From assembly GCF_001647285.1 (NCBI RefSeq), contig NZ_LRML01000002.1, positions 372,001 to 436,000 of the forward strand: a stretch of DNA of 64,000 bases, read 5' to 3'. A program made the position numbers and the translations under genes. This document shows, piece after piece, positions 9,016-44,643 of the stretch. Each line of letters begins with the position of its first letter. The first letter of the stretch is position 1. The notes below the pieces were generated by a model. That model was not told the origin of the DNA. It did not search any database and worked only from the letters and a program-made list of their open reading frames with translations. Source of the DNA: Rufibacter roseus (lineage in GTDB: Bacteria > Bacteroidota > Bacteroidia > Cytophagales > Hymenobacteraceae).

Positions 9016-9060
9016 TGTGCTCGACTAAGACAATTCTAAACACCTGTGTGTTCGAACACG
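9016..9060. promoter_or_regulatory. Paired operator-like sites upstream of the GH109 gene
   Basis: TGTGCTCGACTAA (9016-9028) and the perfect palindrome GTGTTCGAACAC (9048-9059). The central CG pairs are at 9022 and 9053, 31 bp apart. The same spacing is found ahead of susC and the GH3 gene. A central CG in a 12-14 bp palindrome is typical of LacI-family operators. Confidence 0.65.
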
Positions 9061-9307
9061 TTTTTACTAATAGTTAGTTGGATAATAGAATCCCTATCTC
9101 TATTTTTAAATCAGCTATCACTACTTCACCGCTTTACCAAACCACCAGTTAACATATTTTTACCGTTTTGCCTATTCCGCAATTAGGCTATGTAATGGTA
9201 ATACCGAGTTATCTGCTTTTGATGTACCAATGCGCTATATGAAAAGAATCTGAAGCATTCTAATTCTTTTCGCTCACCATAAAACCATGCAAAAAGCGTG
9301 ATTATCT

Positions 9308-10753
9308 ATGAGTAATAACCGTAGAGACTTCCTGAAGCTGGCTGGTCTGGCCGGAGTTGGCCTTGCCAGTACCGGTTTGAGCGGCTGCGCTGCCTCCTCG
9401 TCCGCATCTAATCTAAATTACATCCAGCAGCAGGCTCGTAAAGCAGCTGGACGGCAACAATTTAACATGAGCGGCTATGCTGCTCCCAAACTAGACAAGG
9501 TGCGGATAGGCTATATTGGGTTGGGTATGCGCGGGCCAGGTTCAGTCGTGCGCATGATTCATATAGAAGGGGTGGAAATTAAGGCGCTGTGTGACCTGAG
9601 GCCTGAACGGGTGGCCGCGACTCAGAAGAAAATAGAGAAGTCTGGCCAGCAGCCTATTGCCTACTCTGGCTCTGAGGAAGCCTGGAAAGAAATGTGCGAC
9701 CGAGATGACCTTGACTTGGTTTACATTGCCACGCCCTGGCACCTACACGTGCCTATGGCTGTGTATGCCATGGAGCAGGGCAAACATGTGGCAGTAGAGG
9801 TGCCCGCCGCTACAACTATTGAAGAGTGCTGGCAATTGGTAGAAACGTCAGAGCGCACCAAAAAACATTGCATGATGCTAGAGAACTGCTGCTATGATTT
9901 TTTTGAGATGCTTACCTTGAATATGGCCCGGCAGGGGTTCTTTGGCGAAATAATACACGGGGAGGGAGCTTACATACATGACCTCCTGGACCTAAACTTT
10001 GCCATAACCAGCGAAACTGAAGCAGCCTACCAGGACAATTGGCGCCTCAGGGAGAACGGCCTCCGCAATGGCAACCTTTACCCTACCCATGGGCTTGGGC
10101 CCATCTGCCAGATCATGGATATCAACCGCGGCGACCAAATGGATTATCTTGTCTCCATGGCCTCCAATGACTTCTCCATGGGACCTAAAGCCAAGGAGGC
10201 AGCCGCCAAAGACAGCTACTACCAACAGTTTGTTCATATGAATTTCCGGGGCAACATGAACACCACCACCATCCGGACGAAGAAATGCAAATCTATAATG
10301 GTGCAGCATGATGTGTCCTCTCCCCGACCATATTCCCGCATTCACTTGGTGAGCGGCACCAAGGGCATAGCCCGAAAGTGGCCTACTCCAGCCAAAATAG
10401 CCACTAGCCACCAAAGATGGCTTTCTAAGGAAGAATTCCAAAAGGTGGAGCAACAGTATACGCCCCCGCTTACCAAGAAACTGGGTGAGATGGCAAAGAA
10501 AATAGGTGGGCACGGCGGAATGGATTTCCTGATGGAGTGGCGCTTGATAGATTGCCTTCGGAATGGCTTCCCGCTGGACCAGGACGTGTATGACGCTGCC
10601 CTTTGGAGCGCCATTGCCCCGTTAAGTGAATGGTCGGTGGCTAACCGATCAAACTCTATAGACGTGCCAGACTTTACAAGGGGTGCCTGGCAGAAGAACA
10701 AACCGGTTGATCTAACCTTTGCGGGCGGCGGCACTACCAACGTGAAGGCTTAG
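9308..10753 (+). CDS. Gfo/Idh/MocA-family glycoside hydrolase GH109 (alpha-N-acetylgalactosaminidase type)
   Basis: A 481-residue protein with a Tat signal (RRDFLK at 5-10, then a hydrophobic stretch ending near SGCAAS). An NAD-binding Rossmann fold starts at residue 65 with RIGYIGLGMRGPGSV and continues through IEGVEIKALCDL. LVYIATPWHLHVPMAVYAME, HVAVEVPAATTIEECW and MMLENCCYDFFEM follow the pattern of characterised GH109 enzymes, which use tightly bound NAD+ to release GalNAc by an oxidation-elimination mechanism. Tat export fits a cofactor loaded in the cytoplasm. The substrate is inferred from family. An operator pair lies upstream, and the N-acetylhexosamine kinase at 42105 gives a plausible fate for the product. 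Confidence 0.85.
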   Translation: MSNNRRDFLKLAGLAGVGLASTGLSGCAASSSASNLNYIQQQARKAAGRQQFNMSGYAAPKLDKVRIGYIGLGMRGPGSVVRMIHIEGVEIKALCDLRPERVAATQKKIEKSGQQPIAYSGSEEAWKEMCDRDDLDLVYIATPWHLHVPMAVYAMEQGKHVAVEVPAATTIEECWQLVETSERTKKHCMMLENCCYDFFEMLTLNMARQGFFGEIIHGEGAYIHDLLDLNFAITSETEAAYQDNWRLRENGLRNGNLYPTHGLGPICQIMDINRGDQMDYLVSMASNDFSMGPKAKEAAAKDSYYQQFVHMNFRGNMNTTTIRTKKCKSIMVQHDVSSPRPYSRIHLVSGTKGIARKWPTPAKIATSHQRWLSKEEFQKVEQQYTPPLTKKLGEMAKKIGGHGGMDFLMEWRLIDCLRNGFPLDQDVYDAALWSAIAPLSEWSVANRSNSIDVPDFTRGAWQKNKPVDLTFAGGGTTNVKA

Positions 10754-11106
10754 CATATTACAACCAGTCTTAGAAGCGTTTGAAATTGTCTTTGAGTACT
10801 CCTGTTTTGGGTCTACTTTCTGGAAAACAGGTCCAAAACATAAAGCACGCGAGGTTTCTAAACTCTATAGGTTTGGAAGTGGCAGAATAAAACACCTAAT
10901 GAAAACATGCCCCTTCAGTCCCTCCACTACTAAACCAGCTTTGCCCAGAGGGTGCGCAGGAGAAGATAGCGGGTAGGGCGGCATTAAAGTACAATCTGAT
11001 CCCATTGTTGTAGCCTCACATCAGGTGCGGTCATTATTTTCTAACTAAAAATTTATTCTAAACCAAATAAGCAAACACTAATTACTTTTTTACCTCTTAC
11101 ATAGCT
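10754..11106. other. Intergenic region, GH109 to esterase
   Basis: 353 bp without a gene. It holds one degenerate dispersed palindrome at 10802-10840 and an AT-rich run before the esterase start. No operator-like site seen. Confidence 0.5.
10802..10840. repeat. Dispersed palindromic repeat, copy 2 (degenerate)
   Basis: CTGTTTTGGGTCTACTTTC, short spacer, then GAAAACAGGTCCAAAACA. The outer GTTTTGG/CCAAAAC arms are kept; the inner stem is imperfect. Confidence 0.6.
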
Positions 11107-12021
11107 ATGAAAAAAATACAGCTTATCCTTATGGTGTTATTCACCACAATTGCCTCCATTTCAAATGCACAGAAATTCACCACATTTACTTATTATCAAG
11201 ATGATACGCTAAAATTAGAGCTAGATCTTTTTCTGCCTGCTCAAAAGAGTAAAGAGCCACTTCCTTTGGTCATTTTTGAACACGGCGGAGGGTTCGCTGC
11301 CGGCGACAGATCTGCAGGGCATAACTTCTCCCGTTACCTCGCTAACAGAGGTTATGCCGCTGCAACAATTTCCTATACCCTGTACATGAAAGGCCGAAAC
11401 TATGGCTGCACCGGTCAGTTGCCTGAGAAAATCAAAACCTGGCAAATTGCTGCCAATCAAATGTGGCTAGCCACCTCTTACTTCCTGCAAAACGCGCAAA
11501 AACACGGCATTGACCCCAGCAAAATATTTTTATCAGGCAGTAGCGCCGGTGCCGAGGCTGCGTTGCATGCTGCCTTTTGGGACAGACAAAAAATGAATTT
11601 ATACCCAAATGTCACTCTGCCGGCCACTTTTAAATATGCTGGGGTAGTGTCCGGTGCCGGTGCCATCATGGATTTGAACCTGATCACTCCAAAAAACTTA
11701 ATGCCTGTAATGCTATTCCATGGCAGTGAAGACAAAGGGGTTCCGTATGCTACCGGAGCTCATCATAATTGCCCTACTAATGCCTCTAACTGGTTCATGC
11801 TGTTTGGCGCCTTACCAATTTACAAGCATGTGGTAGAACTGAACGGGAACACAAGACTGGTAACCTTTTGCGGAGGTGCCCATGAGTACAGCGGTGAACT
11901 GTTTAACAAAAAGCAGCACCTGATAATAGATTTTCTTGACAATGTGCTGGCTGGCCAGAAGCAGCAAGAGCATATTATACTAAGCACCGGCAAGAAAAGC
12001 AGCTATTCTTTCTGCGACTAA
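11107..12021 (+). CDS. Secreted alpha/beta-hydrolase (carbohydrate esterase-like)
   Basis: A 304-residue protein with a Sec signal peptide (MKKIQLILMVLFTTIASISNAQ). Alpha/beta-hydrolase elements are readable: the oxyanion-hole motif HGGGFAAGDR (58-67), nucleophile elbow GSSAGAEAA with Ser near 145, an Asp in LFHGSEDKGVPYAT, and the His in GGAHEYSGELF. This is the arrangement of acetyl-esterases of the BD-FAE/lipase-like group often found in polysaccharide loci, where they remove acetyl or feruloyl groups. The substrate cannot be fixed. It is monocistronic, followed by a strong hairpin and facing the convergent regulator gene. Confidence 0.78.
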   Translation: MKKIQLILMVLFTTIASISNAQKFTTFTYYQDDTLKLELDLFLPAQKSKEPLPLVIFEHGGGFAAGDRSAGHNFSRYLANRGYAAATISYTLYMKGRNYGCTGQLPEKIKTWQIAANQMWLATSYFLQNAQKHGIDPSKIFLSGSSAGAEAALHAAFWDRQKMNLYPNVTLPATFKYAGVVSGAGAIMDLNLITPKNLMPVMLFHGSEDKGVPYATGAHHNCPTNASNWFMLFGALPIYKHVVELNGNTRLVTFCGGAHEYSGELFNKKQHLIIDFLDNVLAGQKQQEHIILSTGKKSSYSFCD

Positions 12022-12036
12022 CTTCTTCACACAACA

Positions 12037-12100
12037 AAGCCCTCGTTCCTGTTTTAGCCCTACTTTTATAAAAATAGGGCTAAAACAGGAACGAGGGCTT
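12037..12100. terminator. Bidirectional terminator built around dispersed palindrome copy 3
   Basis: A perfect 26-bp stem from AAGCCCTCGTTC through CTGTTTTAGCCCTA to its complement ending GAACGAGGGCTT, then TTCATTT. The inner GTTTTAGCCCTA/TAGGGCTAAAAC part belongs to the dispersed palindrome family with the stem bases swapped between arms; the outer part is locus-specific. It lies between convergent genes. Confidence 0.8.
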
Positions 12101-12237
12101 TTCATTTATAGCTCTAAACTTTACTGATATCAGATAGGCGCTCCTAAAGTTTTTCTCAATAGTGCATTCCTCTATATTTCAAAAAAGCACAGCAAATAGG
12201 AGCCTATTCATTGTAATTCTGAAGCCTTACATTGATT

Positions 12238-13301
12238 TTACACGTTCAGATAAAATCTTAAATTCTCCTGAGTGATGATGTCAAGCGGTAAATATTTAAT
12301 TGGCTGAATTTCTTTCTTGAAAACTGTCAAGTCAGTTAATTGCTGGATTCCCCAATACCCTTGCCCGAAAGGATTTTGATTGATCAGAAAATCAATAACA
12401 CCTTTTTCCAGATATTCTAAATTCTGCGGCAACAAATCATAGCCTACCAGTTTCACATCATTCCAAGAAAACTTCTCTATATAATACGCTAGTTCAAACG
12501 CTTTTGAGTTAGAAACAAAAACGCCTTTTAAATTGGGATTCTTTTCCTTAAGCTCTAAAATTTGCTGTACAAAAGAAGCATTCTTAGGGTCATCAAAGGT
12601 TTGCTGTATCACCTCAAACTGCCCTACCAGGTGGTCTTTTGAAAAGTAATCTCTAAATCCTTTTTCCTTTTCTAACAAGTGGGCCGAATTTGAAATGTCT
12701 TCGCCAACGTGCGCCACCAAAACCGTTGCGGGCCCAGTCAAACCATAATGCAATAACTTGGCAGCCAACAAACCGCTCTGGTACGAGTCCTGCCCTATGT
12801 AGCTAAGCGCGGAAGAATCAGAAATTTGAGTATTGAACAGAACGTAAGGAATATCCTGCTTTACCCATTCTTCAAAGAAAGCCATTACTTCCTTATGGAA
12901 AATTGGGGCTACAATGATTCCATCAGGATTGTGATTGATTACTTCTGTGGCTTTTTTCTGGAAAGATTCAATGTTGTACGGGTCAAAGATCAGTTGCTCT
13001 ACCACTACACCGTATTGGCTTAACTCCGCTTCAGCTTTTTCAATGCCTGCCTTTGGGTCTTCCCAATACCTGTCTACATCTGGATCTGGAATAAGAGCAA
13101 TGAAAGTATAGGTTCGGTTTGATTTTAAGGTACGAGCAATAAGGTTGGGCTCGTAATTCATCTCCTCCACAATTTTCAGGACCTGCTGTCTTACGTCTTC
13201 TGCTACCCTACCCCGGTTATGTAAAACCCTGTCAACGGTTCCTCTTGAAACTTGTGCCCGCTCCGCTATGTCCTTAATTCGAACTATACTTTTTTTTTCA
13301 T
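12238..13301 (-). CDS. LacI-family transcriptional regulator with a start-codon frameshift in a 9-A tract
   Basis: A LacI/GalR-type repressor with a periplasmic-binding-like sensor domain. The HTH is clear upstream of the first in-frame GTG (13170): RIKDIAERAQVSRGTV then DRVLHNRGRVAEDVRQQVL, hinge NLIARTLKSNRT, then FIALIPDPDVDRYWEDPKAG and a sugar-binding core with QDSYQSGLLAAKLL. The only sensible ATG (13299-13301) is followed by nine A and is one base out of frame with the HTH; ten A would give MKKKSIVRIKDIAE. No ATG, GTG or TTG lies in the HTH frame before a stop. Either transcriptional slippage restores the frame, or this is a homopolymer error or a recent mutation. It is the likely reader of the CG-centred operators. 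Confidence 0.8.
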
Positions 13302-13317
13302 GCTTTTTAAATGTGAA

Positions 13318-13355
13318 TTATAAGCAGTTCCAAAGTTAAGAAACTTTGCTTATAA
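13318..13355. repeat. Inverted repeat just upstream of the lacI-type gene
   Basis: TTATAAGCA (13318-13326) is complementary to TGCTTATAA (13347-13355), with an inner AAGTT/AACTT. It lies 16 bp ahead of the ATG in the leader or promoter and may be an autoregulatory site or a leader hairpin. Confidence 0.5.
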
Positions 13356-13515
13356 TGGTAATTATTTGCAATAGAATAAGTCTACTAGAAGCTTTCACAA
13401 CTGTTTACATCTTTATCAGATAGGGCTTTTCCTATACTAGGCTCTAGATTTTAAAGTTAAATCGTTTTTAAAGCTAATGATTTAATAGCTGCTTCCACTA
13501 ACAAACTTCTTCAGA

Positions 13516-16977: not shown

Positions 16978-17051
16978 ACTCTTTTTAACTACTCAACAAC
17001 TTTGTTTATCTCCAACAGTGGTTTACTGCCCTTTAAAATAGAGAATATTCT

Positions 17052-18809: not shown

Positions 18810-18855
18810 CATAATTCTACTTATAAAATATATCAATAGGACCGTTAATAGCCTC

Positions 18856-20622: not shown

Positions 20623-20758
20623 TAAAATAAAACGTAAAAAAATTTCCCCTCCCCTGCCATTACAAGCTTCTTAACGCTCCACAGCTTTAGGTTTGGAAGT
20701 AGTATTTTGTTTATGATCTTCCTCTTTTTCTAAGGGTATGGTCTTCCCTCAGAGCTTC

Positions 20759-20797
20759 TGTTTTTAGCTTGTTTTTAAAAAATGAGCTCTAAAACAA
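20759..20797. repeat. Dispersed palindromic repeat, copy 4
   Basis: CTGTTTTTAGCTTGTTTTT, then AAAAAATGAGCTCTAAAACA. Outer and A/T inner parts are conserved; the central stem AGCTT/GAGCT is partly mismatched. Confidence 0.65.
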
Positions 20798-20956
20798 ACT
20801 AACTGAATGTCGGTTACAATTTGGCTTTCAGTAGATGTATCATGTTAACAAGAGCTCTCCCACTGTAGCATTTAAAGCACCCTTTGAACCCCTTATACCA
20901 AAGAGATCACTATGCATTAAAAGAAGCTTGTAAGCAGAAACCTAGAATATTAGATA

Positions 20957-21000
20957 TACCCTCTGAAACCTAGTTTTAGATACTAGCTCCCAGAGGGTAC
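20957..21000 (-). terminator. Putative terminator of the GH20-CE15-GH5 set
   Basis: TACCCTCTG pairs with CAGAGGGTA, with an inner CTAGT/ACTAG stem. Lies 55 bp beyond the GH5-like stop codon. Confidence 0.6.
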
Positions 21001-35500: not shown

Positions 35501-35749
35501 GGAAGAACCGCTGGTAGTTCCTTTGATAATAACTGTGGCACCTATTAAGGGTTCGTTTTTCTCGTCAACCACTTTACCCCGCAGTACATGCTGAGCATGG
35601 GCGTCTAACGAAAACAGACATAAAGTGAACAACAACAGACTAAAGCCCCTAGCTGCACACTTTAAAAGCCCCACCCGCCAAAATGAGCAGGAAGAAGACT
35701 TGCCCCTATAACTAAGGGCACAATCATAGCTTGTAGAATTATTCTTCAT
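32561..35749 (-). CDS. susC: SusC/RagA-family TonB-linked outer-membrane transporter
   Basis: A 1062-residue TonB-dependent transporter. A long signal region ends at FSLDAHAQ. Next come a carboxypeptidase-regulatory-like domain (about 55-130; LRGKVVDEKNEPLIGATV), the TonB-box-like IGEVVVVGFGVQEKES, a plug with FFIRGMSTFAGSNSPLVLVDGVP and TATAIYGAEGANGVLLITS (in parts), and a beta-barrel to the end (NVTVWDEVQMYDPELG...GGLEVTF). It imports oligosaccharides with its SusD lid. First gene of the susCD-GH35-DUF4861 direction, preceded by a 1.1-kb upstream region with three operator-like sites, so it is probably the main regulated promoter. Confidence 0.96.
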   Translation of the reverse strand: MKNNSTSYDCALSYRGKSSSCSFWRVGLLKCAARGFSLLLFTLCLFSLDAHAQHVLRGKVVDEKNEPLIGATVIIKGTTSGSSTDYDGRFVMEVPTAQTVLQISYLGYETMETPAGAERDRTFSLKPDQAKIGEVVVVGFGVQEKESMVSSVATVKGEQLRMPTRNLSNNLAGQVAGMIAVQRSGEPGYDNSEFFIRGMSTFAGSNSPLVLVDGVPRSLYDIEPDEIETLTLLKDATATAIYGAEGANGVLLITSKRGKAQKTTITYRGETSIQSPTRAPRYANSYDYLRLYNEALVNEGGSPVFSDDILEKYRTGEDPDLYPNSNWWDIIMREHTWNTRHTLNFRGGGERFRFFTSGAYFQESGYYKVNPEFSKDNGLKRYNLRNNVDIDVTKTTLLRVDLAGQYVQTTFPGFGANTIFERISRIPPHLFPARYSNGMLGQHPQWNGNKTSPYVAIVESGYAKEWRTMIQSRVDLEQKLDFITEGLKIRGAASYDADGQFRATRGKTPNTYNATGRDADGNLILTQIQRATPFGEPGESNSASKRIYLESALDYKRKIGKHDINALALYYQKENQLHNNALAYRTMGMVGRVTYAFDNRYSIEGSFGSTGSENFAKGYRFGFFPAVGVAWNVANEAFFPEALKSTFQTLKFRGSIGRTGNDDILGDGNRFPYRPTFNTNAPGYSWGIGSSGALNSIGGINEGKFASPFLSWEIEMKRNIGIDLTMWNGRVSIVADYFNNHRSNILMQRRTISGVAGFRESPFQNFGQVTNKGFDGSIELRHTIGDWTFSGRGNYTFARNRITEIDEIPQVHEWMNVTGTRLNSVGSMLIAERLFEESDFDVTMGTNGKKQYTLKEGIATKNDFPNPLPGDIKYKDLNNDGVVDDFDRTIDQFDPYIPEIIYGFGLNVMYKGFYGSVFFQGADNVTVNLNNQANAFMPFHWGLTESNVRQEIVESRWTEENPSQDVFFPRLRQQSMGNTNTLSTWWLRDGAFLRLKNVEFGYNFGPKVLALGRMKAARIYLMGQNVTVWDEVQMYDPELGNSAGGTRYPLPRMWTGGLEVTF

Positions 35750-36010
35750 GTTTAAACTTTTTGTTTGTTAGGTAGATCACGATTAAAATTTAGACCAGTA
35801 GATATTGATTGTTCCGAGAGCCACATTAATGGGCGTATCTGCGAGGGAATTGTGAGGCTGTAAGGCAAACTTTTAATTAAATTACTCCTATTAGAAGTTT
35901 TATAGGCACTTAAACACATTCACAAAAGCCTTCCACACCAAATACAATCTGTTAACATTTTGTATTCAAGACTAAAGATATTTTCTTATTTTATTAAAAG
36001 CAAGAAAAAA

Positions 36011-36054
36011 TGTGCTCGATAACATGATATTTTTTTCATTATGTGTTCGAGCAC
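36011..36054. promoter_or_regulatory. Paired operator-like sites upstream of susC
   Basis: TGTGCTCGATAAC (36011-36023) and TGTGTTCGAGCAC (36042-36054). CG centres at 36017 and 36048, 31 bp apart. About 260-305 bp upstream of the susC start. Confidence 0.7.
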
Positions 36055-36188
36055 TTAACAAGCTTAAATTCTTCCACCTCAAGCAGCTTTTTTTTGTGAA
36101 TTATTGATTTGAGGGAGAGGGACTGTGCTTAAATCTCTATTATTAAACTACTTGCCTGATCGTGCTAAGTCAACTGTTTAACTATATC

Positions 36189-36202
36189 ACTCTGTACAGA
36201 GT
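36189..36202. promoter_or_regulatory. Perfect 14-bp palindrome
   Basis: ACTCTGTACAGAGT, 440 bp upstream of susC. Could be an operator for a second regulator; no partner named. Confidence 0.35.
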
Positions 36203-36550
36203 AATTTTCTTTCACAGCTGAAGTTACAAACAACAATTTCTAGCTTCAACTCTATTAAAAAGGCGCAAATTACTTGAATCTTTCTTTAGGTGATGCCGCT
36301 TCTAACTTTAGGTTAGATTCAATTCTTTTAAAAGAAATGGGAAATAGTTGTTGTAGCAGAGTCAGAAAATTAAAGTAGGACATAGGCCATATTTTAACTG
36401 GAGCCAATACTAAGCCGTGCTTACCTCTAATTAAACTACTTAGCCTCAATTAATTATATACCAGATTAAAAGAGATCAAAATTCAACATCATACCTTTTT
36501 AACCTCACATCCTGAAGATATGGAATCAAATCTGAAAATGCGAAACAATG

Positions 36551-36563
36551 TGTGCTCGATAAC
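36551..36563. promoter_or_regulatory. Single operator-like site upstream of susC
   Basis: TGTGCTCGATAAC, identical to 36011-36023. No second CG-centred site is found 31 bp away. Confidence 0.6.
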
Positions 36564-36835
36564 GCTAATGATATTTTTTCCCATTTGGTAGATGTGGCCT
36601 TTATTGAGTGCATTGAAAAGAGTAGCACGTCTAATTTTAGCATTTCGCTACAAAACCAGAAATAACATCAAGTAGCAATTTCAAATGTACTAACAGTTAC
36701 GCTACCGAAGAGGTAACGAAAATGTGACCCACTGATCTATCCTGAAGCGCTCTGCTGTTAATTAAATCCGCCACAAAGAAACGTGCCTCAGATTATAGCC
36801 TACATCAATGTTAGGCTCTTACAACATTTGAGCTG

Positions 36836-37810
36836 TCAACTTCTGGCAATTTTACCAAAAGAATATTTCTTGCTTTTCTTCACCTCTTTTTTAGCTACTT
36901 TTTTCAAATAAGCCCCAAACTCAGGAGATACATTCTCTGGCACAAAATCTAATTTAGTAGGCGACTCATTAAATAAGACTCCGTACCAAACTAAAGATCC
37001 TAAGAACTCCCCAGCTACGTTAGCATGGTTTGCATCGAAAATTAGGTTTTTATTATGCCAACGGTAGCCGGCATGCAGTGAATTAGCTTGGTTGGGCATA
37101 GCCGGATGAGCCGGATTGTTGAAATCATAGTTTGGGTCTTTTTTATAACCCCACTTTTTGTCTGAGCTAACTTGCCAAAATGCATCACCTACAGGCAATA
37201 ACCGCAAATCTAGTTCCTTAGCTATTGCGTGGTAATTGGCTCTAGACTTCTCCCACATCTCTTTCTGGTCTTTTGCATGCTCTTTGTCAGCTACTAAACC
37301 AAACACTTTTGCGTCTGCCCGGTATGCCCAAGTCTGATGCAAGATCACCTCGGCATTGGGCTGTAGCTTCTTTATGAATTCGTATAGATTTCTAGCGTAG
37401 GGCTGGTAAGTATCAAGCCAAGGGGTGTTCATAGAATTCTGTTGGATGGTTACTATATCCCACTCCCCTTCTGACAAAAGCACTTTTAAAGACTTTCCCC
37501 CGTAAGCATTCCCTTTTGGGTCCTTTGGATCAGCTTCATGGGCCACAACTGTATCCCAATGCCGTTGCAGGGAAGCCCCACCTATTTCCGCTCTTCCTAA
37601 AATCAACTCATGACCTTTTTCTTTGGCAAGCTGAGGTAAAAACCTGGAAGCGTTTTGTGAAAAGCTGTTGCCAATTATAAACAGTCGAACAACCTTACCT
37701 TTAGCTTTTTTTGATTCAAGTAATTCTGCTGACGAAGAAAAGCCAAAGGCATTGTTCAGCAGAAAGGCAACAAAGAAGAATAAGGGGAATATACTTTTAA
37801 GAGCTGACAT
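36836..37810 (-). CDS. DUF4886 SGNH/GDSL-like hydrolase
   Basis: A 324-residue exported protein (signal ending near FLLNNAFGFS). The DUF4886 SGNH fold: block I FIIGNSFSQNASRFLPQL with the likely nucleophile Ser in GNSFS, an EIGGASLQRH block II, IVTIQQNSMNTP in place of block III, HQTWAYR, and block V FDANHANVAGEFLGS with the DxxH pair. Such proteins are probable carbohydrate esterases, but activity is not established for most. It follows the lyase gene by 40 bp and is likely co-transcribed with it. Confidence 0.8.
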   Translation of the reverse strand: MSALKSIFPLFFFVAFLLNNAFGFSSSAELLESKKAKGKVVRLFIIGNSFSQNASRFLPQLAKEKGHELILGRAEIGGASLQRHWDTVVAHEADPKDPKGNAYGGKSLKVLLSEGEWDIVTIQQNSMNTPWLDTYQPYARNLYEFIKKLQPNAEVILHQTWAYRADAKVFGLVADKEHAKDQKEMWEKSRANYHAIAKELDLRLLPVGDAFWQVSSDKKWGYKKDPNYDFNNPAHPAMPNQANSLHAGYRWHNKNLIFDANHANVAGEFLGSLVWYGVLFNESPTKLDFVPENVSPEFGAYLKKVAKKEVKKSKKYSFGKIARS

Positions 37811-37850
37811 TGAGTTTAATTTTTATTCGAAGCAGTTTTATGGGTAATAC

Positions 37851-39782
37851 CTATTGCGCCTTTTTCAAAGGCCACTTTTTCAAAGACATGTTTTGCATCT
37901 CTGGCTGCACAGTAGCCTTTTCAGGAACTAGTAAAACAGTTAGTGCTGATTCAGTGTTTGCAGGCAATTCTGTTTCAAAGCCAACTACTATAGTGCCAGG
38001 GTTTTCCATATCAAAATCCTTGATTGGCTCTGTCTTCCAGGTTTTAAAGGTGATTTTCGAAGGGCCAAAAGCCTTTAACTGAACCATTTTTCCGTTCTGA
38101 GTGAGCTCGGCAGTTCCATCAGCTTTAATTGTTACCTGGGCAGGAGTAACCATAGACCAACGTACAGTGGTTTGTTTATTGTTGGTCTTAATTTCATCCC
38201 GAACAACCACATAATTATTGTCTACTATTGCCACCCCTCTTTCAGCGGCCAACACATTGTTATTGTAAATAGACGAAAGGTCTGCAACCGCGCTTAAAAA
38301 TGAAGATTCATCAGAATAGCCTGTAATAGGCGCAAAGCCCTTTACCAACTGCAGGCTGTTGTTCAGAGCAAGGGTATTGTGGAAAAGGTTGTTGTGACGG
38401 AGCACCTCCCAACGTTGGCCGTTCTGCCTGTAATCCCAAAGCGCCACACCCTTGGCCTCAAGAGTGGTGTAATCTTGCATACCAAGATCCATTGCCCACC
38501 TCTCGTTATTAGCATCCATCACAAAGGAACCAATGTCCATTTGCGCATGGCTTCCAGAGGGGCTACCTCCTTTAAAACCTACATAAATAGAATTTTTATC
38601 GGTCCAAGAGGTTCGCATTAAGGCGACAGGGGTTGCGCCGTGCCCTACCCATATCAGCTCTTTTGGTGCCTCAATTTTCTTTGTCTTCACACCGGCGCCC
38701 CAAATCAATGCAGCAGGTAGCATTCTGTTTTTCACCAATTCCGGATCTTCTCTCAAATACTCTTTTTCAGTAAACAATATGGAATAATCCTGCTGTCTCT
38801 TTGCCAACCAAAACATAGCCGGATTCAATTCAGTGGATTCTGTTCCGTCAGAGTAGTTATAGCTTTTTCCGGTAGGGCCTACCATGTGCTGCACGAAATG
38901 CCCAGTATTTAGAAAGCCAGGCAAAGAGGCTAATCCGTAGTCGGTACCAAAGGCTCTTTGCAGAGCATCAATAAATAATATATTGAAGGTGGTTCCGTAT
39001 CCCCAATAGGTATAACCTTCTGGATATGCACCGGATGGGGCATATCCAGCCATAACCAGAGGAACAGACTTGATAGCTCTTTCTATGATTTGCTTAGCAA
39101 GCTCCGGCCGGTCTTCATACACGGCAATTGCCCCAAATGCCATACCTGCATTGCAGACTTGGTTCCAATTGTTCGTACGCTGAACCCATGAATTGTTCCT
39201 GGGCAACATAGAAGGCTCCAGCCCTTTGGTTATAATTGCTTCTTTAAGAGTAGTTTTTGTTTGAGGTGTTAAATCATGAAACAACCAGTCATAGCCAATA
39301 GAAACAGCCAATGTCATTTCTGCCACATCAAGGTAGTGCTGGGGATTCCAGTCTTCAAAGGCGGCAACGGTTAATAGTTCTTTTTCTGCCCTTTCCAGAA
39401 ACCTTTTGTCTTTGGTCATACGCCATGCGTAAGACAAATAGAAGATGCGGCGAATACTTTCTCTGGAGACTGGAAGCAAACGGATACCATTCAATTTCCT
39501 TTGTGCTGGCTTCTGGGAGAGCATTGATATGCTTTCCTTTATAATCATCTCATGCGCCTTCTTCCAATTCTTATCAGCCTTGACAGTCTTCTTGATTCCT
39601 TTCTCTTCTCCATTCAGCAGTAAAATTCTTGGATGGGAAGGAATTTCAGTTGCATCTGGTAAGTTCACGGACTGGGCAGAAGCACTCAATACGGTCAACT
39701 GAGATAAAGCTACCCAAGCGAATAGTATAAGAATATTAAATGGCACCCGCCACCTGATAACCATTGATGAATCCTTCTTCAT
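37851..39782 (-). CDS. Heparinase II/III-family polysaccharide lyase
   Basis: A 643-residue exported protein (signal to about SASAQ, residue 37). An alpha/alpha toroid with RTNNWNQVCNAGMAFGAIAV (203-222), GAYPEGYTYWGYGT (251-264), followed by a beta-sandwich with GGSPSGSHAQMDIGSFVMDA (406-424; H412). The Asn, His, Tyr and second His expected of heparinase II/III-like lyases fall in these motifs. It would cleave a uronic-acid polymer by beta-elimination, leaving a 4,5-unsaturated uronic acid for the GH88 enzyme at 47475. The PL family (PL12, PL21, PL38 or unassigned) cannot be decided by eye. Paired with the DUF4886 gene. Confidence 0.8.
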   Translation of the reverse strand: MKKDSSMVIRWRVPFNILILFAWVALSQLTVLSASAQSVNLPDATEIPSHPRILLLNGEEKGIKKTVKADKNWKKAHEMIIKESISMLSQKPAQRKLNGIRLLPVSRESIRRIFYLSYAWRMTKDKRFLERAEKELLTVAAFEDWNPQHYLDVAEMTLAVSIGYDWLFHDLTPQTKTTLKEAIITKGLEPSMLPRNNSWVQRTNNWNQVCNAGMAFGAIAVYEDRPELAKQIIERAIKSVPLVMAGYAPSGAYPEGYTYWGYGTTFNILFIDALQRAFGTDYGLASLPGFLNTGHFVQHMVGPTGKSYNYSDGTESTELNPAMFWLAKRQQDYSILFTEKEYLREDPELVKNRMLPAALIWGAGVKTKKIEAPKELIWVGHGATPVALMRTSWTDKNSIYVGFKGGSPSGSHAQMDIGSFVMDANNERWAMDLGMQDYTTLEAKGVALWDYRQNGQRWEVLRHNNLFHNTLALNNSLQLVKGFAPITGYSDESSFLSAVADLSSIYNNNVLAAERGVAIVDNNYVVVRDEIKTNNKQTTVRWSMVTPAQVTIKADGTAELTQNGKMVQLKAFGPSKITFKTWKTEPIKDFDMENPGTIVVGFETELPANTESALTVLLVPEKATVQPEMQNMSLKKWPLKKAQ

Positions 39783-39917
39783 GCTGTTAAATCTTTACTG
39801 TTGCTTGATTTTAATAAGTATGCCCATAGGTCTATAACTTGCTTTCTCACAAGTATAAGAACCCAAAGGCTGAGCGAAAGAGATTTTGCCTCTGCTTTTG
39901 GTTATTGCGCTGCGTGT

Positions 39918-39954
39918 GTTTTAGACCTTTTTTTGCGAAAACAGGCCTAAAACA
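39918..39954. repeat. Dispersed palindromic repeat, copy 8
   Basis: GTTTTAGACCTTTTTTT, then GCGAAAACAGGCCTAAAACA. Flanked by ATTGCG (39904-39909) and CGCAAT (39957-39962), again a locus-specific outer stem. 33 bp beyond the transporter stop codon. Confidence 0.68.
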
Positions 39955-39986
39955 AACGCAATTAGAGCTAAATTACTTCTATGGTG

Positions 39987-41273
39987 TTATGCTTTTGACT
40001 TATGCCCGAAAGTGGCATAGTACAGAACAAACAGGTAACAAGGCACACAAATCCAATAGGCCTGCTGCGGATTCCAATGATCGGCTAACGCACCGTACAA
40101 CAGTGGCAATACGGCGCCACCGGCCAGTGCCATAATTAAAAACGAAGAGCCTATCTTGGTAAATCTGCCCAAACCTTTAATGGCTAAAGGCCAAATGGCC
40201 GGAAAAACCAAAGCGTTTGCCAACCCTAACAAAGAGATGAACACAACAGATGTTACCCCGGTTGAAAATATAGCTGCAATAGTAAACAATACCCCCACCA
40301 CAGCACTAATCTGCAGAGCCTTTTCTTGTGAAATGAATTTAGGTATAACCACAATACCTATCAAATAGCCAGCAATCATGGCAAACAGGGTACAGGTGGT
40401 AAAGAATTTAGCCGTAGCAAATGGAATTCCTTGCGTAGCACCATAGCTAATGATGGTGTCTCCGGCAATTACTTCCACCCCTACATATAAAAACATGGCT
40501 ATAGTGCCTAATATCAAAGACTTGAATTGGAAAATACTGGTCTTATTCGTTTTACCAACGGCTACACTTCCATCTTCTTTATCGGTATCAATTTCAGGCA
40601 GAGAAGATTTATACACTATAAAAGCCAAAGTCACCAGAACGGCAATAATCACCAGATACGGAACTACCACCCTCTCAGCCAAAGCGTTCAGTTCTAATGC
40701 TTTTTGAGCAGGATTCATCACCTCCAGTTTCTTCACTAGCACATCTGCATCATTCAGAGCAATGGCACCTAAAATAATAGGCGCCAACGCACCGGCCACT
40801 TTATTGCAAATACCCATAATGCTGATGCGCTTGGCAGCGCTTTCACTGGGGCCCAAAATGGTAATGTAGGGATTAGCGGCAGATTGCAAAACAGCCAAAC
40901 CAGTTCCCTGTACAAATAAACCCAACAAGAACAAGGTATATGTGCGGGTGTAGGCAGCCGGTATAAATATGAGCGCTCCAATGGCCATCACTACCAACCC
41001 TAAAGACATTCCCTTTTTGAATCCGGTTACTTTTAGCACCCAAGCAGAGGGCACTGCCATCACCAGGTAAGAAATATAAAAGGCAAAGGCTACAAAGTAT
41101 GACTCCATGTTGTTCAACTCACAGGCTATCTGCAAGTATGGAATCAACACAGAATTTAGCCATGTGATAAAACCAAAAATAAAGAATAGGCATCCAATAA
41201 TTAGAATTGGGCGAGCCTGCGATTGCTTTGGTTCTATAGTTGTTGGGGTTGAAGAAACAGAAGTGGTAACCAT
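39987..41273 (-). CDS. FucP/GluP-type sugar:proton symporter (MFS)
   Basis: A 428-residue, twelve-helix major-facilitator transporter. Family signatures: CLFFIFGFITWLNSVLIPYL in helix 1 and LQSAANPYITILGPSESAAK followed by RISIMGICNKVAG. This is the FucP/glucose-galactose transporter group, which imports fucose, glucose, galactose or N-acetylhexosamines with protons. In this setting, next to an N-acetylhexosamine kinase operon, HexNAc or galactose is the best guess. It lies 172 bp downstream of the CBM9-like gene and may be part of the same transcript. Confidence 0.88.
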   Translation of the reverse strand: MVTTSVSSTPTTIEPKQSQARPILIIGCLFFIFGFITWLNSVLIPYLQIACELNNMESYFVAFAFYISYLVMAVPSAWVLKVTGFKKGMSLGLVVMAIGALIFIPAAYTRTYTLFLLGLFVQGTGLAVLQSAANPYITILGPSESAAKRISIMGICNKVAGALAPIILGAIALNDADVLVKKLEVMNPAQKALELNALAERVVVPYLVIIAVLVTLAFIVYKSSLPEIDTDKEDGSVAVGKTNKTSIFQFKSLILGTIAMFLYVGVEVIAGDTIISYGATQGIPFATAKFFTTCTLFAMIAGYLIGIVVIPKFISQEKALQISAVVGVLFTIAAIFSTGVTSVVFISLLGLANALVFPAIWPLAIKGLGRFTKIGSSFLIMALAGGAVLPLLYGALADHWNPQQAYWICVPCYLFVLYYATFGHKSKA

Positions 41274-41445
41274 AAAAATAGGAATGATGATGTTTGTTAG
41301 TTTGTTGGGCAGATAAAAATAGCGGAACCTGAATGCTTAGCAATGAAACAGTAAAATGTTTAAACTTTATCCTGTAATATTTACTCAGGCAGAACGTCCC
41401 GCCTTCTCTAGTACAACAGATTCTGCGTTCTTGCCGCTAGTTCAG

Positions 41446-42096
41446 CTACAACAGCTGTAACTCCCCAAAATATTGGGGCAAATGGAAATTGGGCTCCTCT
41501 GACACTACCGGGTTCCAGCTGACATAATGGGGAGTGGGCAAATCATCTCCACATTTATAAAAATTCACTCGGCAACTTTGGTCTTTGATGGCATCAATGT
41601 CATTATAGCAGAAAACAGAGGTGGGTATGATCAAGGTTAGCTCCCACTCTACCACAGGTTTTTCATTTGGCACCGGCACAATGCGCAAAGACGCCGAACG
41701 TCTAATCTGTTTAGTGATGGATTCTGGCAGAAGGGTTCTTTCATACCGGCTTTGTCCGTAACCTACAGTACAAGTGCCCAAACTGTTAAACTCCAGATTA
41801 TAATAAGATGGATCTTGGTTGAAGGTAATAAACCACTCTACACAGCTATCTTTATACACAGGATCAGAATCACGGCGAAAAACCGCTCTCACAGACTCCT
41901 CCCGTACAAAATATTTAATAAAAAGGCAGTCGTGGTTATGCGCGATCACAAACTGCACATCTGGCTTATAGCTATATTCTTTCCATGGGGTGATTGCAAT
42001 GACATTTTTTTCTAATTGGTCCAGCTGCTCAGAAACATCCTGCATGACACTATCATGGTGGAGGTGCTCAAAGAAAGGGGCTTTCAGTTTTTGCAT
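41446..42096 (-). CDS. Cytosolic CBM9-like protein
   Basis: A 216-residue protein with the carbohydrate-binding family 9-like fold: VIAITPWKEYSYKPDVQFVI (split), CLFIKYFVREESVRAVF, DSCVEWFITFNQDPSYYNLEFNS (split at FNQ), and HYVSWNPVVSEEPNFHLPQYFGEL. There is no signal peptide or catalytic domain, so it seems to act in the cytoplasm, which is unusual for a CBM. It starts eight bases after the sugar-kinase stop. Its partner may be a phosphorylated or nucleotide sugar, or it may have a regulatory job; both are guesses. Confidence 0.8.
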   Translation of the reverse strand: MQKLKAPFFEHLHHDSVMQDVSEQLDQLEKNVIAITPWKEYSYKPDVQFVIAHNHDCLFIKYFVREESVRAVFRRDSDPVYKDSCVEWFITFNQDPSYYNLEFNSLGTCTVGYGQSRYERTLLPESITKQIRRSASLRIVPVPNEKPVVEWELTLIIPTSVFCYNDIDAIKDQSCRVNFYKCGDDLPTPHYVSWNPVVSEEPNFHLPQYFGELQLL

Positions 42097-42104
42097 ATAA
42101 ATCC

Positions 42105-43253
42105 TTATTTGGATGTAACTGTCGCTACTTCCTTACAATTCTTGGCCACCTCCCCAATAATGTCTCTTAACAAGTCATATTGTTCTTCTAATTTCCGGAC
42201 TAACTGAAACTGCGCACGCGCACGCTGCAGGTTATGCCCCTTATGGTGGATTTTGTAGTAATTATCTCCGTCTATGTAATCGGTTAGAAATCGTAAGCCC
42301 ATAATAAAGGGCAACAACAACACGCCGTGAGACAGTGATTCTATTTCGGTTCGGGTAAGAGAATGACCTGTTTCTTCTAAAAAACCTTCCGTAAACCCTC
42401 TGAACAAGTCAACGCTTATCTGAATTTCTTCTAAGTCTGGCTCGTCTTCCGGGGCTGTGTTAATGGTTGTTCTTATGGCATCACCAAAATCATAGGCCAC
42501 AAATCCAGGCATAACAGTATCCAGGTCTACCACACATTGTGCTTTGTCATTTTTATCAAGCAACACATTGTTAAACTTTGTGTCGTTGTGGGTGATGCGC
42601 AGCGGCAACTTACCAGCCTTACCTAACTTATAAATGGCGCTCATGGCTTCCGCTCTCTCCTCCACAAAGGCTATTTCAGTTTTCACTTCAGCAACCCTGT
42701 TTACGGGGTCTTTTTGAAGTACTTCATGATATAACCGAAGCCTGTTTACCACATTATGGAAATCTGGAATGGTGTCATGAAGTAGGTGAACCGGCAAATC
42801 TGCCAAGAGCGCCTGAAAGCGACCAAAAGCCTTACCGCCTTCATAAGCCAATTCTGCGGTTTTCACTACATCATAGGTGAAAGTGTCGGGAATGAAGTGG
42901 TACACCCGCCAAAAGCTGCCGTCGTTATCTTTGTAGTACCATTCCCGCTCCTTCGTAGAAACCAAGGTTAACACTTCTTGCTCCGGGTCAGCACCTGATA
43001 GATGCTCCAGCTTTTTCCGAAGATGGCTTGTTACAACCTGAATATTTTCCATCAGGGCCGGAATGTTTTTAAATACATTATGATTAATGCATTGTAATAA
43101 ATAATCTGGCTCTCCTTCTTTTAAGTTCTTTACATGATAAGTGTCATGGATATGCCCTGAACCAAAAGGCTCTACATCGCCTACTGTTCCTTGTATAGCA
43201 AACTTTGATAGGATCTCGAATAATTTATTACTTGCCTTTTCTACTACTACCAT
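42105..43253 (-). CDS. nahK: N-acetylhexosamine 1-kinase-like (APH fold)
   Basis: A 382-residue kinase of the aminoglycoside-phosphotransferase/choline-kinase fold. P-loop-like FGSGHIHDTYHV (30-41), YLLQCINHNVF, catalytic loop ITHNDTKFNNVLLD with D224, and metal-binding VVDLDTVMPG with D243/D245. This matches the NahK/LnpB group, which phosphorylates GlcNAc or GalNAc at C1, giving HexNAc-1-phosphate. The next gene upstream is a sugar-1-phosphate nucleotidyltransferase only five bases away, which supports the assignment. Together they bypass the usual GlcNAc-6-phosphate route. Confidence 0.82.
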   Translation of the reverse strand: MVVVEKASNKLFEILSKFAIQGTVGDVEPFGSGHIHDTYHVKNLKEGEPDYLLQCINHNVFKNIPALMENIQVVTSHLRKKLEHLSGADPEQEVLTLVSTKEREWYYKDNDGSFWRVYHFIPDTFTYDVVKTAELAYEGGKAFGRFQALLADLPVHLLHDTIPDFHNVVNRLRLYHEVLQKDPVNRVAEVKTEIAFVEERAEAMSAIYKLGKAGKLPLRITHNDTKFNNVLLDKNDKAQCVVDLDTVMPGFVAYDFGDAIRTTINTAPEDEPDLEEIQISVDLFRGFTEGFLEETGHSLTRTEIESLSHGVLLLPFIMGLRFLTDYIDGDNYYKIHHKGHNLQRARAQFQLVRKLEEQYDLLRDIIGEVAKNCKEVATVTSK

Positions 43254-43258
43254 CTTTT

Positions 43259-44185
43259 TTAGGCTTCTTGTAAGTTTTTATTCCATAAATTTTTCGGATA
43301 TACACCCGCATCAATGAGACTGCGCAGGGTATTGACCGCAATAGGTTTATCTTCTGGATACGTGACTCCAAACCACTTCTCAGGTGATGAAAGCACTCGA
43401 ACCTTAGCACGCCCTGACTGCACCAAGGCATCTACCACTCTGGGTAAATAACATTCAGCTTTCGGATCTGGGCTATCAGCTTGTTCTTTGATGAAGTTTG
43501 TCAGGTACTCTTCAAAAAAGGGAAGAACTGCAGGAGGAAAACCCATCATGTTCATAGAAACCACCTCATCGCCGGTTAGAGCCACCTCCTGCCCATTATC
43601 CAAGGCGACGATGCCTTTATTTTCTTTGGCTATATGCGTTTGCTCTGTGACACTCTGCAGATACCCATCAGGGGCAACTTCACAAATCCCTCTGGAAACA
43701 GCCCCAAACTCTGATAAAGTATTGGCTAACGTATATCCTACCAGCCCTATTTCCTGATCTGGGTTGGAGGTCAAGAATTTACTTATTATCTCAAATGAAC
43801 TGAACCCGTAAAAGTCATCTCCGTTGATAACCGCAAATGGTTCACTGATTTTAGTTCCGGCTACCCAAATAGCATGAGCGGTTCCCCAAGGCTTCACCCT
43901 GCCAGGAGGCACTTGCAAACCAGCGGGCAGAATATCCAATTCCTGCAGCACATAATCCACTTCTATTTGGCCACTGAACTTACCAAGCATAATAGCCTTA
44001 AATTCCTCCTCAATAGACTTCCGGATTACGAACAACACTTTCCCAAAGCCAGCCCTAATGGCATCATATACAGAATAATCAATAATTGTCTCACCATTAG
44101 GCCCAAAGGCATCTATCTGCTTTAAGCTTCCGTACCTGCTGCCCATACCTGCGGCCAACACTAATAAAGTGGGTTTATGATGCAT
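43259..44185 (-). CDS. Sugar-1-phosphate nucleotidyltransferase
   Basis: A 308-residue NTP transferase. N-terminal nucleotide-binding signature LVLAAGMGSRYGSLKQIDAF, sugar-binding VKPWGTAHAIWVA, metal-binding VINGDDFYG, and C-terminal EKWFGVTYPEDKPIAVNTLR. It joins a nucleotide to a sugar-1-phosphate. Placement ahead of the N-acetylhexosamine 1-kinase suggests the substrate is HexNAc-1-P, giving UDP-HexNAc, but the sequence alone does not prove base or sugar. First gene of a tightly packed set (nucleotidyltransferase, kinase, CBM9-like) with an operator-like site 177 bp upstream. Confidence 0.82.
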   Translation of the reverse strand: MHHKPTLLVLAAGMGSRYGSLKQIDAFGPNGETIIDYSVYDAIRAGFGKVLFVIRKSIEEEFKAIMLGKFSGQIEVDYVLQELDILPAGLQVPPGRVKPWGTAHAIWVAGTKISEPFAVINGDDFYGFSSFEIISKFLTSNPDQEIGLVGYTLANTLSEFGAVSRGICEVAPDGYLQSVTEQTHIAKENKGIVALDNGQEVALTGDEVVSMNMMGFPPAVLPFFEEYLTNFIKEQADSPDPKAECYLPRVVDALVQSGRAKVRVLSSPEKWFGVTYPEDKPIAVNTLRSLIDAGVYPKNLWNKNLQEA

Positions 44186-44361
44186 GTATCTTCTATTATC
44201 AAATCGAGAAATAAATAAATCGATATCCTCTTACCAGCTTTCTTTGAAGGCAATTGGGGTCCTTTTTTCAGAAATCATCTGCAACGCTCCTGAAATCAAC
44301 TAAGCCAACTTCCTGTAATCATTTGAAATATTACCTATTCAAACAAAATCCTTTGCTTTGT

Positions 44362-44374
44362 TTTCTCGAGCACA
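44362..44374. promoter_or_regulatory. Operator-like half-site upstream of the nucleotidyltransferase-kinase set
   Basis: TTTCTCGAGCACA. The right half CGAGCACA is identical to the sites at 51718 and 56262; the left half is poor. Confidence 0.5.
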
Positions 44375-44599
44375 AGGCGCAGGGTGTTTTTCAAACTTCT
44401 TAAAGCCGCACCCGGCAAGTAGGTCGCTGTGACTTCTATCAATAGTGGAGGCAGCACCTATATCTTATTCCAACTTGCCGCAAAATCCTTAAATCACGCC
44501 TCCTGTAAACAGCAAACACTCCACCTTTACAGCATTATTATACATTTCCGTTCTAAAAATATACATCATTGATGTAACAAACAACAAAAACCATAAAAA

Positions 44600-44643
44600 T
44601 GTGCTCGAACACTCTAAGAATATTTTATAATGTGTTCGTACAC
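44600..44643. promoter_or_regulatory. Paired operator-like sites upstream of GH3
   Basis: TGTGCTCGAACAC (44600-44612) and TGTGTTCGTACAC (44631-44643). CG centres at 44606 and 44637, 31 bp apart, as at susC and GH109. Confidence 0.7.

Follow-up and report, generated by a model that had tools for sequence, protein, structure and literature searches.

In Bacteroidota, the local control of glycan loci is chiefly known through HTCS, SusR and sigma/anti-sigma systems, and LacI-family proteins are mostly known as repressors. Among the Bacteroides regulators described in the part of PMC3878776 cited here, the LacI-type proteins UxuR, UxaR, UxmR and KdgR serve uronates, NanR is of the ROK type, and so is the N-acetylglucosamine regulator. 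A survey of the LacI family (PMC4052901, cited in part here and below) found an even palindrome with a central CG for 1173 of 1303 regulators, placed over 75% of sites 30-140 bp before the start codon, and reported tandem sites peaking at spacings of 13, 22 and 32 bp, of which 22 and 32 were read as cooperative dimers. For CcpA, genes with boxes upstream of the -35 are activated as a general rule (PMC3463425, also cited in part). A literature search for a LacI-type activator in Bacteroidota turned up nothing on the system described below among the papers listed; PMC12125979, in the part that was available, concerns another regulator.

Analyzing a 64,000-nucleotide stretch of Rufibacter roseus DNA (the window), we examined an earlier note, which had described operator pairs with centres exactly 31 bp apart at three separate promoters. 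The pairs were confirmed: TGTGCTCG occurs at 9016, 36011 and 44600, and TGTGTTCG, each time 31 bp from its TGTGCTCG partner, at 9047, 36042 and 44631, all three pairs falling outside ORFs of at least 150 aa. Read as 14-bp palindromes with the consensus TGTGYTCGARCACA, the pairs score 10/13, 12/13 and 13/12 of 14, the site at 9016 being a half-site only. As even palindromes with a central CG they have the form of LacI-family operators. The window holds three palindromes scoring at least 13 and four scoring exactly 12, compared with per-window means of 0.0 and 0.57 in 30 first-order Markov sequences. The sites are as follows, without strand.

9016..9029: GH109 promoter, distal operator, degenerate and reduced to the half-site TGTGCTCG; 10/14, matrix score 2.7 (the five other paired sites reach 14.9 to 24.5)
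9047..9060: GH109 promoter, proximal operator, TGTGTTCGAACACG; 13/14, matrix score 24.5
36011..36024: susC promoter, proximal operator, TGTGCTCGATAACA; 12/14, matrix score 14.9
36042..36055: susC promoter, distal operator, TGTGTTCGAGCACT; 13/14, matrix score 23.9
36551..36564: lone extra site, partner missing, in surroundings that resemble the susC operator; matrix score 15.4
44361..44374: weak third site in the leader of the nucleotidyltransferase operon, TTTTCTCGAGCACA; 12/14, matrix score 10.2
44600..44613: proximal operator towards 44185, TGTGCTCGAACACT; 13/14, matrix score 24.3
44631..44644: distal operator of the 44.6-kb pair, TGTGTTCGTACACT; 12/14, matrix score 20.1

As in the tandem-operator LacI regulons of RafR (Enterobacteriales) and ScrR (Burkholderiales), central-CG palindromes stand a whole number of turns apart (PMC4052901); unlike in those regulons, 31 bp is the rule here and the pairs keep a near-fixed register upstream of promoter boxes. 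The operators also lie farther from the start codon than most survey sites (PMC4052901), the inner one being 255-422 bp from the start of the faced gene in the window and 112-554 bp in most relatives' rows. Control of a sugar locus by a local regulator is shared with Bacteroides, where HTCS sites are also paired, at 21 bp on average, but HTCS and SusR sites are direct repeats (PMC3878776, in the part cited).

Searching the whole 5.1-Mb genome for TGTGYTCG-N23-TGTGYTCG gave three matches, and the reversed pattern gave none. With up to two mismatches the genome contains 47 palindromes versus 23 for the reversed control, and the three pairs of such palindromes within 100 bp are all spaced 31 bp, one of them (C1:2266/2297) outside the window. 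With free spacing, 16 genomes of the genus yielded 11 places, nine at 31 bp and one each at 30 and 21 bp (reversed control, four places), and 204 genomes of the family, searched at spacings of 20-50, yielded 11 places, ten at 31 and one at 32, against 0 in the control. Sister species owe their pairs to common descent. In a set of 13 places, two (L041 and L042) contain no palindrome and are apparently due to chance. When loci were chosen by the LacI protein (best 80 of 534), the 42 with a LacI identity of at least 50% held 20 site pairs 14-120 bp apart, 13 of them at 31 bp, and the remaining 38, with more distant LacI proteins, held no pair under the same rule; a looser matrix rule found three pairs in these 38, at 79, 88 and 122 bp. 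The matrix was trained on 31-bp pairs, so that its scan is no independent test of spacing, and L063, L086 and L088, duplicates of places under other handles, were excluded from its building and from the scans. The spacer sequences vary between promoters and species while the 31-bp spacing is kept. The spacing is not peculiar to this system, one published LacI-family peak lying at 32 bp (PMC4052901). Pairs spaced 56-57 bp were seen in Pedobacter and Mucilaginibacter.

The genes concerned are listed here with their strands.

9308..10753, plus strand: GH109-type gene (PF21252, PF01408), probable target
12238..13301, minus strand: LacI-family regulator (HTH and Peripla_BP_4, from matches to the HTH and sensor domains), candidate binder of the pairs
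32561..35749, minus strand: susC, heading a same-strand run that ends beside the LacI gene
36836..44185, minus strand: probable target run with nucleotidyltransferase, APH-type kinase, CBM9_2, NagP-like MFS (an assignment below the model's cut-off), heparinase II/III-like and DUF4886 genes
44918..47329, plus strand: GH3 gene, divergent from the 44.6-kb pair

The earlier note had named the LacI-type protein at 12238 as the natural candidate. The listed ORF, which begins at a GTG, is without an HTH; the reading frame extends upstream of this GTG at 13170 and carries a LacI HTH there (PF00356, 41.6 bits, cut-off 27), and a mere periplasmic binding protein was therefore rejected. The sensor domain is periplasmic-binding-protein-like (PF13407, 152 bits), and the closest PDB relative, 3gbv (E 8.5e-63), matches the sensor part. 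The genome encodes eight LacI-type genes, of which one is of this kind at E 1e-40; saturation of silent sites precludes a dN/dS ratio for LacI. An ATG at 13301-13299, followed by nine A, does not lie in the LacI reading frame, and the same holds for the relative G037. An in-frame ATG, GTG or TTG precedes the HTH in 59 of 62 LacI rows, the three without being the window and G037 under two ids (73 loci were queried, 11 gave no row, and some genes are present under two ids).

Co-occurrence supports this candidate. Its orthologue is present in 68 of the 204 family genomes and in all 12 of those carrying a 31-bp pair (Fisher 9e-7), and in the two pair-bearing genera the pair occurs in 12 of 15 LacI-positive versus 0 of 9 LacI-negative genomes (3e-4), the species in both statistics being related and the genomes not independent events. 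Exceptions among the 15 are G057, with no pair, G060, spaced 30, and G039, spaced 32; 53 LacI-positive genomes of two other family genera (identity about 46-59%) are without a 31-bp pair. On this comparative evidence the 12238 protein is well supported as the predicted regulator of the pairs, and the idea of a single regulator whose palindromic dimer sites share a face of the DNA is supported.

Its probable targets make up much of the surrounding locus. Besides susC, the susC run comprises SusD, GH35, DUF4861, GH20, glucuronyl-esterase-like, two BNR/CBM9 and ThuA fusion genes. The third pair had been assigned to the GH3 promoter, and this part of the earlier note did not hold: the pair lies between divergent genes, promoter scans found no promoter in register on its GH3 side, and the adjoining promoter reads towards 44185. 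GH3 was rejected as the best target of a pair that faces the nucleotidyltransferase/kinase operon. Orthologous transferase/kinase genes come after a pair both in G009 (L040) and in G045 (L046), where a glucosamine-isomerase-type gene precedes them; in G037 (L047) they face one. Across loci the targets include transferase/kinase, GH20, GH109, NagP-like MFS and glucosamine-isomerase/PIG-L genes. Rfam matched only a tRNA over the window.

Each pair in the window is followed by a predicted promoter of the Bacteroidota type.

9077..9108, plus strand: to GH109 at 9308, GTTG - 20 bp - TATTTTTA, 23 bp after the operator centre; top score of its stretch
35973..36004, minus strand: to susC, CTTG - 20 bp - TATCTTTA, 13 bp after the operator centre; top score of its stretch
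44554..44585, minus strand: to the nucleotidyltransferase operon, GTTG - 20 bp - TATTTTTA, 21 bp after the operator centre; an overlapping same-strand alternative at 18 bp scores slightly higher

Boxes identical to those of the last promoter, at equal distance, are found in G037 (L047). To locate promoters openly, we scanned both strands of a stretch reaching 150 bp either side of each pair; the other promoter scans covered the region downstream of the operators. The promoter tests comprised 40 pairs, L180 included. In the open scan 29 of the 40 pairs (19 of the first 29 and 10 of the 11 fetched later) had their top-scoring promoter 12-14 or 20-24 bp beyond the inner operator, such places amounting to ~8 of 307 offsets per strand; in a single pair (L073) it overlapped an operator. 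Under a strict box rule, written after the data were seen, a promoter lies at 20-24 bp in 23 of 29 and 11 of 11 pairs, with shuffle expectations of 0.16 and 0.07, and two more at 13 bp bring the counts to 25 of 29 and 11 of 11. L159, one of the later 11, duplicates locus L085; L037, L039, L043 and L089 of the first 29 fail the rule at either distance, L043 and L089 being close. The top promoter was out of register in 11 of the 40. In six Dyadobacter loci (L067, L069, L070, L074, L075 and L078) a promoter with a slightly better score sits on the same strand, its start about 101-102 bp upstream; transcription from it would cross the operators, an arrangement suited to a roadblock repressor. L073 is the overlapping case, and in L037, L039, L180 and the 44.6-kb pair of the window the top promoter lies elsewhere.

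Since the flavobacterial -7 box spans -12 to -5 (PMC9723704, in the part cited), the operators would lie at about -58 and -89 of the predicted start sites, which in the window fall near 9113, 35968 and 44549; this layout suggests an activator. The word operator in the earlier note hinted at repression; the pairs stand mostly upstream of the promoter in a near-fixed register, and this position probably fits activation better. A site upstream of the -35/-33 box in a fixed helical register, as found here for most pairs relative to predicted starts, is also what characterizes CcpA activation of ackA, pta and ilvB in B. subtilis, where a LacI-family protein acts with an effect that depends on the helix face (PMC3463425). 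CcpA differs in being global and in using HPr-Ser-P as cofactor; here a local regulator would use two operators and a Bacteroidota promoter.

The sequences themselves show the pairs, the conservation of their spacing, the distance at which a predicted promoter recurs and the co-occurrence with the LacI gene. To account for them we propose, with moderate confidence, that the LacI-type protein at 12238 activates Bacteroidota-type promoters upon sugar. This amino-sugar-linked protein would bind two palindromes, with the core TGTGYWCGWRCACA, as two dimers; because 31 bp is three helical turns, both dimers would occupy the same side of the helix and assist each other's binding. With the inner operator at about -58 (-49 at susC, one turn closer) and the outer at about -89, upstream of the promoter, the bound protein would most likely touch RNA polymerase and turn the promoter on when its sugar ligand, which we infer to be of the GlcNAc/GalNAc type, is present. 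Three units, namely the susC run, the nucleotidyltransferase/kinase/NagP run and GH109, would be switched on, which is most of the glycan locus. The result is a predicted LacI-type regulon whose motif is specific enough for targets to be found from sequence alone, and a test case for possible promoter activation by a LacI-family protein in Bacteroidota.

There is a real possibility that the protein is instead a repressor, which from -58/-89 would block the alpha C-terminal domains, an unseen activator, or polymerase arriving from an upstream promoter, until released by sugar. The repressor role usual in the family speaks for it, as do the A/T-rich stretch between operator and -33 box, the good promoter reading across the operators in the six Dyadobacter loci and the weak third site in the leader of the nucleotidyltransferase run. 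CcpA of B. subtilis provides a precedent, repressing the lev operon from an upstream cre by hindering the activator LevR (PMC3463425). Against repression, the best promoter lies just downstream of the pair in near-fixed register in 29 of 40 cases and overlaps an operator in one. Looping might call for a third site, and within 400 bp just one of 39 pairs (scanned without L180) has any, the 44.6-kb pair with its weak site at 44361.

Binding of the pairs by another regulator that travels with the locus is improbable. The link between this LacI protein and the sites is deduced from sequence, in a genome with eight LacI-type genes, but the central-CG palindrome is typical of the LacI family (PMC4052901), every family genome with a pair has this gene, the Dyadobacter pair adjoins it and in 17 of 18 genomes occurs nowhere else, and the 38 loci of more distant LacI proteins hold no pair. 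It is very improbable that the three pairs arose by copying of a single ancestral promoter stretch, or by chance, and have no cooperative function: A/T-rich spacers common to the susC and nucleotidyltransferase pairs and the lone look-alike at 36551 would agree with this, but spacers otherwise differ between promoters and species under a constant 31 bp, and reversed patterns gave 0 in 204 genomes.

Activation by the LacI-type protein would take a different form in Dyadobacter. There 18 of 19 genomes carry a pair (up to three mismatches) some 190-250 bp upstream of the LacI gene, and 17 of these 18 have no other; the pair faces a terminator-ended small-RNA candidate of 130-165 nt. LacI itself was rejected as a clear target, the in-register promoter pointing away from it. 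We tentatively extend the proposal to a LacI-family protein serving in Cytophagales as dedicated activator through a rigid module in which two operators 31 bp apart are followed, after about 22 bp, by a Bacteroidota promoter; in Rufibacter and Adhaeribacter the protein might directly activate enzymes and transporters of an amino-sugar glycan locus and in Dyadobacter might have one clear target, a small RNA beside its own gene relaying the sugar signal, in parallel to the GlcNAc-induced GibS of Bacteroides; in the window lineage, LacI synthesis may need slippage on the conserved A9 tract. The promoter module and the small RNA are the new parts, tandem LacI-family operators with a 32-bp peak being already published (PMC4052901).

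GibS of Bacteroides thetaiotaomicron, as described in the part of PMC7366714 cited, is about 145 nt, largely unstructured, intergenic and amino-sugar-linked, with a potential terminator. The candidate resembles it by description in its intergenic position, predicted terminator and presumed tie to amino sugars; unlike GibS, it adjoins a LacI gene and, in the four Dyadobacter loci searched, has no Rfam match. An RNA model (R1) found it in 0 of 12 genomes outside Dyadobacter, with 150 first-look candidates scored per genome. If real, it would connect sugar sensing by a LacI protein with a small RNA. A -7 box and a hairpin with a T-rich tail are present in 18 of 19 loci, so that the candidate has its own predicted promoter, a predicted intrinsic terminator and no conserved reading frame: 12 of 18 loci hold no ATG frame of at least 10 aa, one holds a frame of 27 aa and five hold frames of 12-16 aa, four of these five being close relatives that seemingly share one common 12-aa frame.

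The earlier note had claimed that pairs of putative operators with centres 31 bp apart precede three promoters, and all three were found at the positions claimed (sites starting at 9016/9047, 36011/36042 and 44600/44631), between open reading frames of at least 150 amino acids. The sites are palindromes centred on CG with the consensus TGTGYTCGARCACA; five of the six are good, the poor one being the distal GH109 site at 9016, a half-site. Two exact half-sites spaced by 31 bp occur three times in the 5.1-Mb genome, and the same pattern read backwards (reversed control) does not occur. Allowing up to two mismatches, we found 47 palindromes versus 23 for the reversed control; three site pairs lay less than 100 bp apart, every one at 31 bp, including a new one outside the window (C1:2266/2297). 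This extra pair (L037; C1:2266-2310) is located in a 2.1-kb gap ahead of a GDSL/Por_Secre_tail gene, and scans around it found no promoter in register. The window also holds a stretch resembling the susC operator at 36545-36590 (TGTGCTCGATAAC...TGATATTTTTT) in which the second operator is absent, possibly a decayed copy, as well as two CGAGCACA half-sites 21 bp apart (56267/56288) upstream of a GDSL gene starting at 56071, the former being part of an 11/14 palindrome and the latter scoring lower. Features of the window are:

322-405: tRNA gene (Rfam)
Pair 9016/9047: GH109 gene, putative target
Pair 36011/36042: susC and a long same-strand run ending beside the LacI-family gene, putative target
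Pair 44600/44631: nucleotidyltransferase, APH kinase, CBM9_2, NagP-like MFS (394 bits, under the cut-off of 625), heparinase-like and DUF4886 genes, putative target run

This gene set suggests an amino-sugar glycan. In relatives, pairs precede SusC genes in five genomes (G009, G048, G032, G045 and G037) and at locus L091, and nucleotidyltransferase/kinase genes in G009; in G045 a pair lies ahead of a glucosamine-isomerase/PIG-L gene, which precedes nucleotidyltransferase/kinase genes.

The spacing of 31 bp exceeds chance in relatives too, as indicated by free-spacing scans with reversed controls. Across 16 genomes of the genus, 9 of 11 places were at 31 bp (4 places in the reversed control), and a scan of 204 family genomes using a stricter palindrome and spacings of 20-50 bp gave 10 of 11 places at 31 bp and one at 32, with none in the control. 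Among the best 80 of 534 relatives of the LacI protein, the 42 loci with at least 50% identity carried 20 site pairs, 13 of them at 31 bp, and by the same rule the remaining 38 had none; a looser rule yielded three pairs in these 38, at 79, 88 and 122 bp. Two of the 13 places from one search of the pair pattern (L041, L042) had no palindromes. Spacing alone is not new, since tandem LacI-family operators peaking at 32 bp, rather than the 31 bp seen here, are described in PMC4052901. Searches of open-licence papers found no description of the motif, the operator-promoter module or the Dyadobacter RNA considered below. Pedobacter and Mucilaginibacter loci carry similar palindromes spaced 56-57 bp instead of 31:

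L090: 16116/16172
L094: 17793/17849
L113: 20027/20083
L126: 11440/11497

The candidate binder, encoded at 12238-13301 on the minus strand, carries a LacI-type helix-turn-helix together with a Peripla_BP_4 sensor domain. Given the spacing, two dimers would bind cooperatively on one face of the DNA. The 31-bp pair (up to two mismatches) occurs in 12 of 204 family genomes, at 24 places (control 0), and an orthologue (E of 1e-90 or better) in 68, including all 12 with the pair (Fisher tests: 9e-7 overall and 3e-4 inside the two pair-bearing genera, the species being related and not independent); 53 LacI-positive genomes of two other genera are without the pair, which counts against a simple rule. 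In Dyadobacter, a genus of another family of the same order, a pair (up to three mismatches) adjoins the LacI gene in 18 of 19 genomes, all 18 positions being matched to contig ranges; 17 of these have no other pair and one has a second, with three mismatches. The pair was present in one of the seven other genomes of this 26-genome scan, in which the reversed control matched in 2 of 26.

We searched for promoters of the Bacteroidota type, in which TTG or TAG is separated by 19-20 bp from a -7 box resembling TAnnTTTR. Under a strict rule, framed after the data were seen, a predicted promoter starts 20-24 bp past the inner operator centre in 23 pairs of the initial 29 (shuffles expect 0.16) and in 11 of 11 fetched later (0.07 expected); of these 11, several represent one promoter in sister species, and L159 duplicates locus L085. 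Two further pairs, those of susC in the window and G037, have it 13 bp away, nearer by about one helical turn. With freer scoring, made before the strict rule, all 11 later pairs had on one side a highest-scoring downstream promoter at 21-24 bp. As these scans covered the downstream side alone, an open scan was added, covering both strands and reaching 150 bp beyond each side. In 29 of 40 pairs the highest-scoring promoter was downstream in register, at 12-14 or 20-24 bp (such positions make up about 8 of 307 offsets per strand), which speaks against the LacI-type protein being a repressor. At L073 it overlaps an operator, at L037, L039 and L180 it lies elsewhere, and at the window's 44.6-kb pair it lies 18 bp from the centre on the strand of the in-register promoter, which ranks second. 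Repression, the less favoured reading, is consistent with a slightly stronger promoter about 101-102 bp upstream in six Dyadobacter loci, which reads across the operators, and with repression from upstream CcpA boxes in B. subtilis (PMC3463425). According to the same paper, activation is the rule in B. subtilis where a CcpA box lies upstream of a gene's promoter. Because of this rule, because the operators lie near -58 and -89 of the predicted promoters (taking positions -12 to -5 for the -7 box, as in PMC9723704), and because a third operator occurs within 400 bp in 1 of 39 pairs (the 44.6-kb pair), we modestly favour activation by the putative LacI regulator.

In Dyadobacter the in-register promoter points away from LacI into an intergenic stretch:

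L066-L081, L083, L089, L114, about 9500-9850, minus strand: candidate small RNA with conserved promoter box and intrinsic terminator, adjoining the pair beside LacI
L067, L069, L070, L074, L075, L078, minus strand, towards LacI and about 100 bp from the pair: another predicted leftward promoter (TTTG-20-TAGTTTTA-like), which would cross the operators into the small-RNA stretch

The candidate RNA, found in 18 of 19 loci, measures 128-166 nt (218 in one), carries conserved C/U-rich boxes and ends in a hairpin and T-rich tail; three of five pairs of the terminator consensus show pair-keeping changes on both sides (17 sequences). No reading frame is common to the loci of the genus, and four close relatives seemingly share a 12-codon frame. 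Rfam gave no match for it on four Dyadobacter loci. A model built from 16 sequences, with 150 candidates scored per genome, found one copy in each of the six Dyadobacter genomes searched, two of them (L083, weak, and L114) outside the training set, and none in 12 non-Dyadobacter genomes. D. luticola (L083) keeps the weak match, yet is without the pair.

An unusual start of the LacI gene is shared by the window and the closest relative, Rufibacter sp. XAAS-G3-1 (G037):

Window 13290-13301 (minus strand), and L049/L052/L063 at the corresponding place: an ATG with nine A directly after it that does not share the reading frame of the protein

Querying 73 loci gave 62 rows, 59 with an in-frame start; the three exceptions were the window and G037 genes only. 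Both genes have the same A tract and the same 12 bases after it. Over 349 codons the two genes differ by 0.126 at amino-acid-changing versus 0.82 at silent sites, indicating that the protein is under strong purifying selection in both species. Transcriptional slippage on the A tract, a process reportedly covered by a review (PMC5009743), is a plausible explanation; that both genomes carry a sequencing error is less likely.
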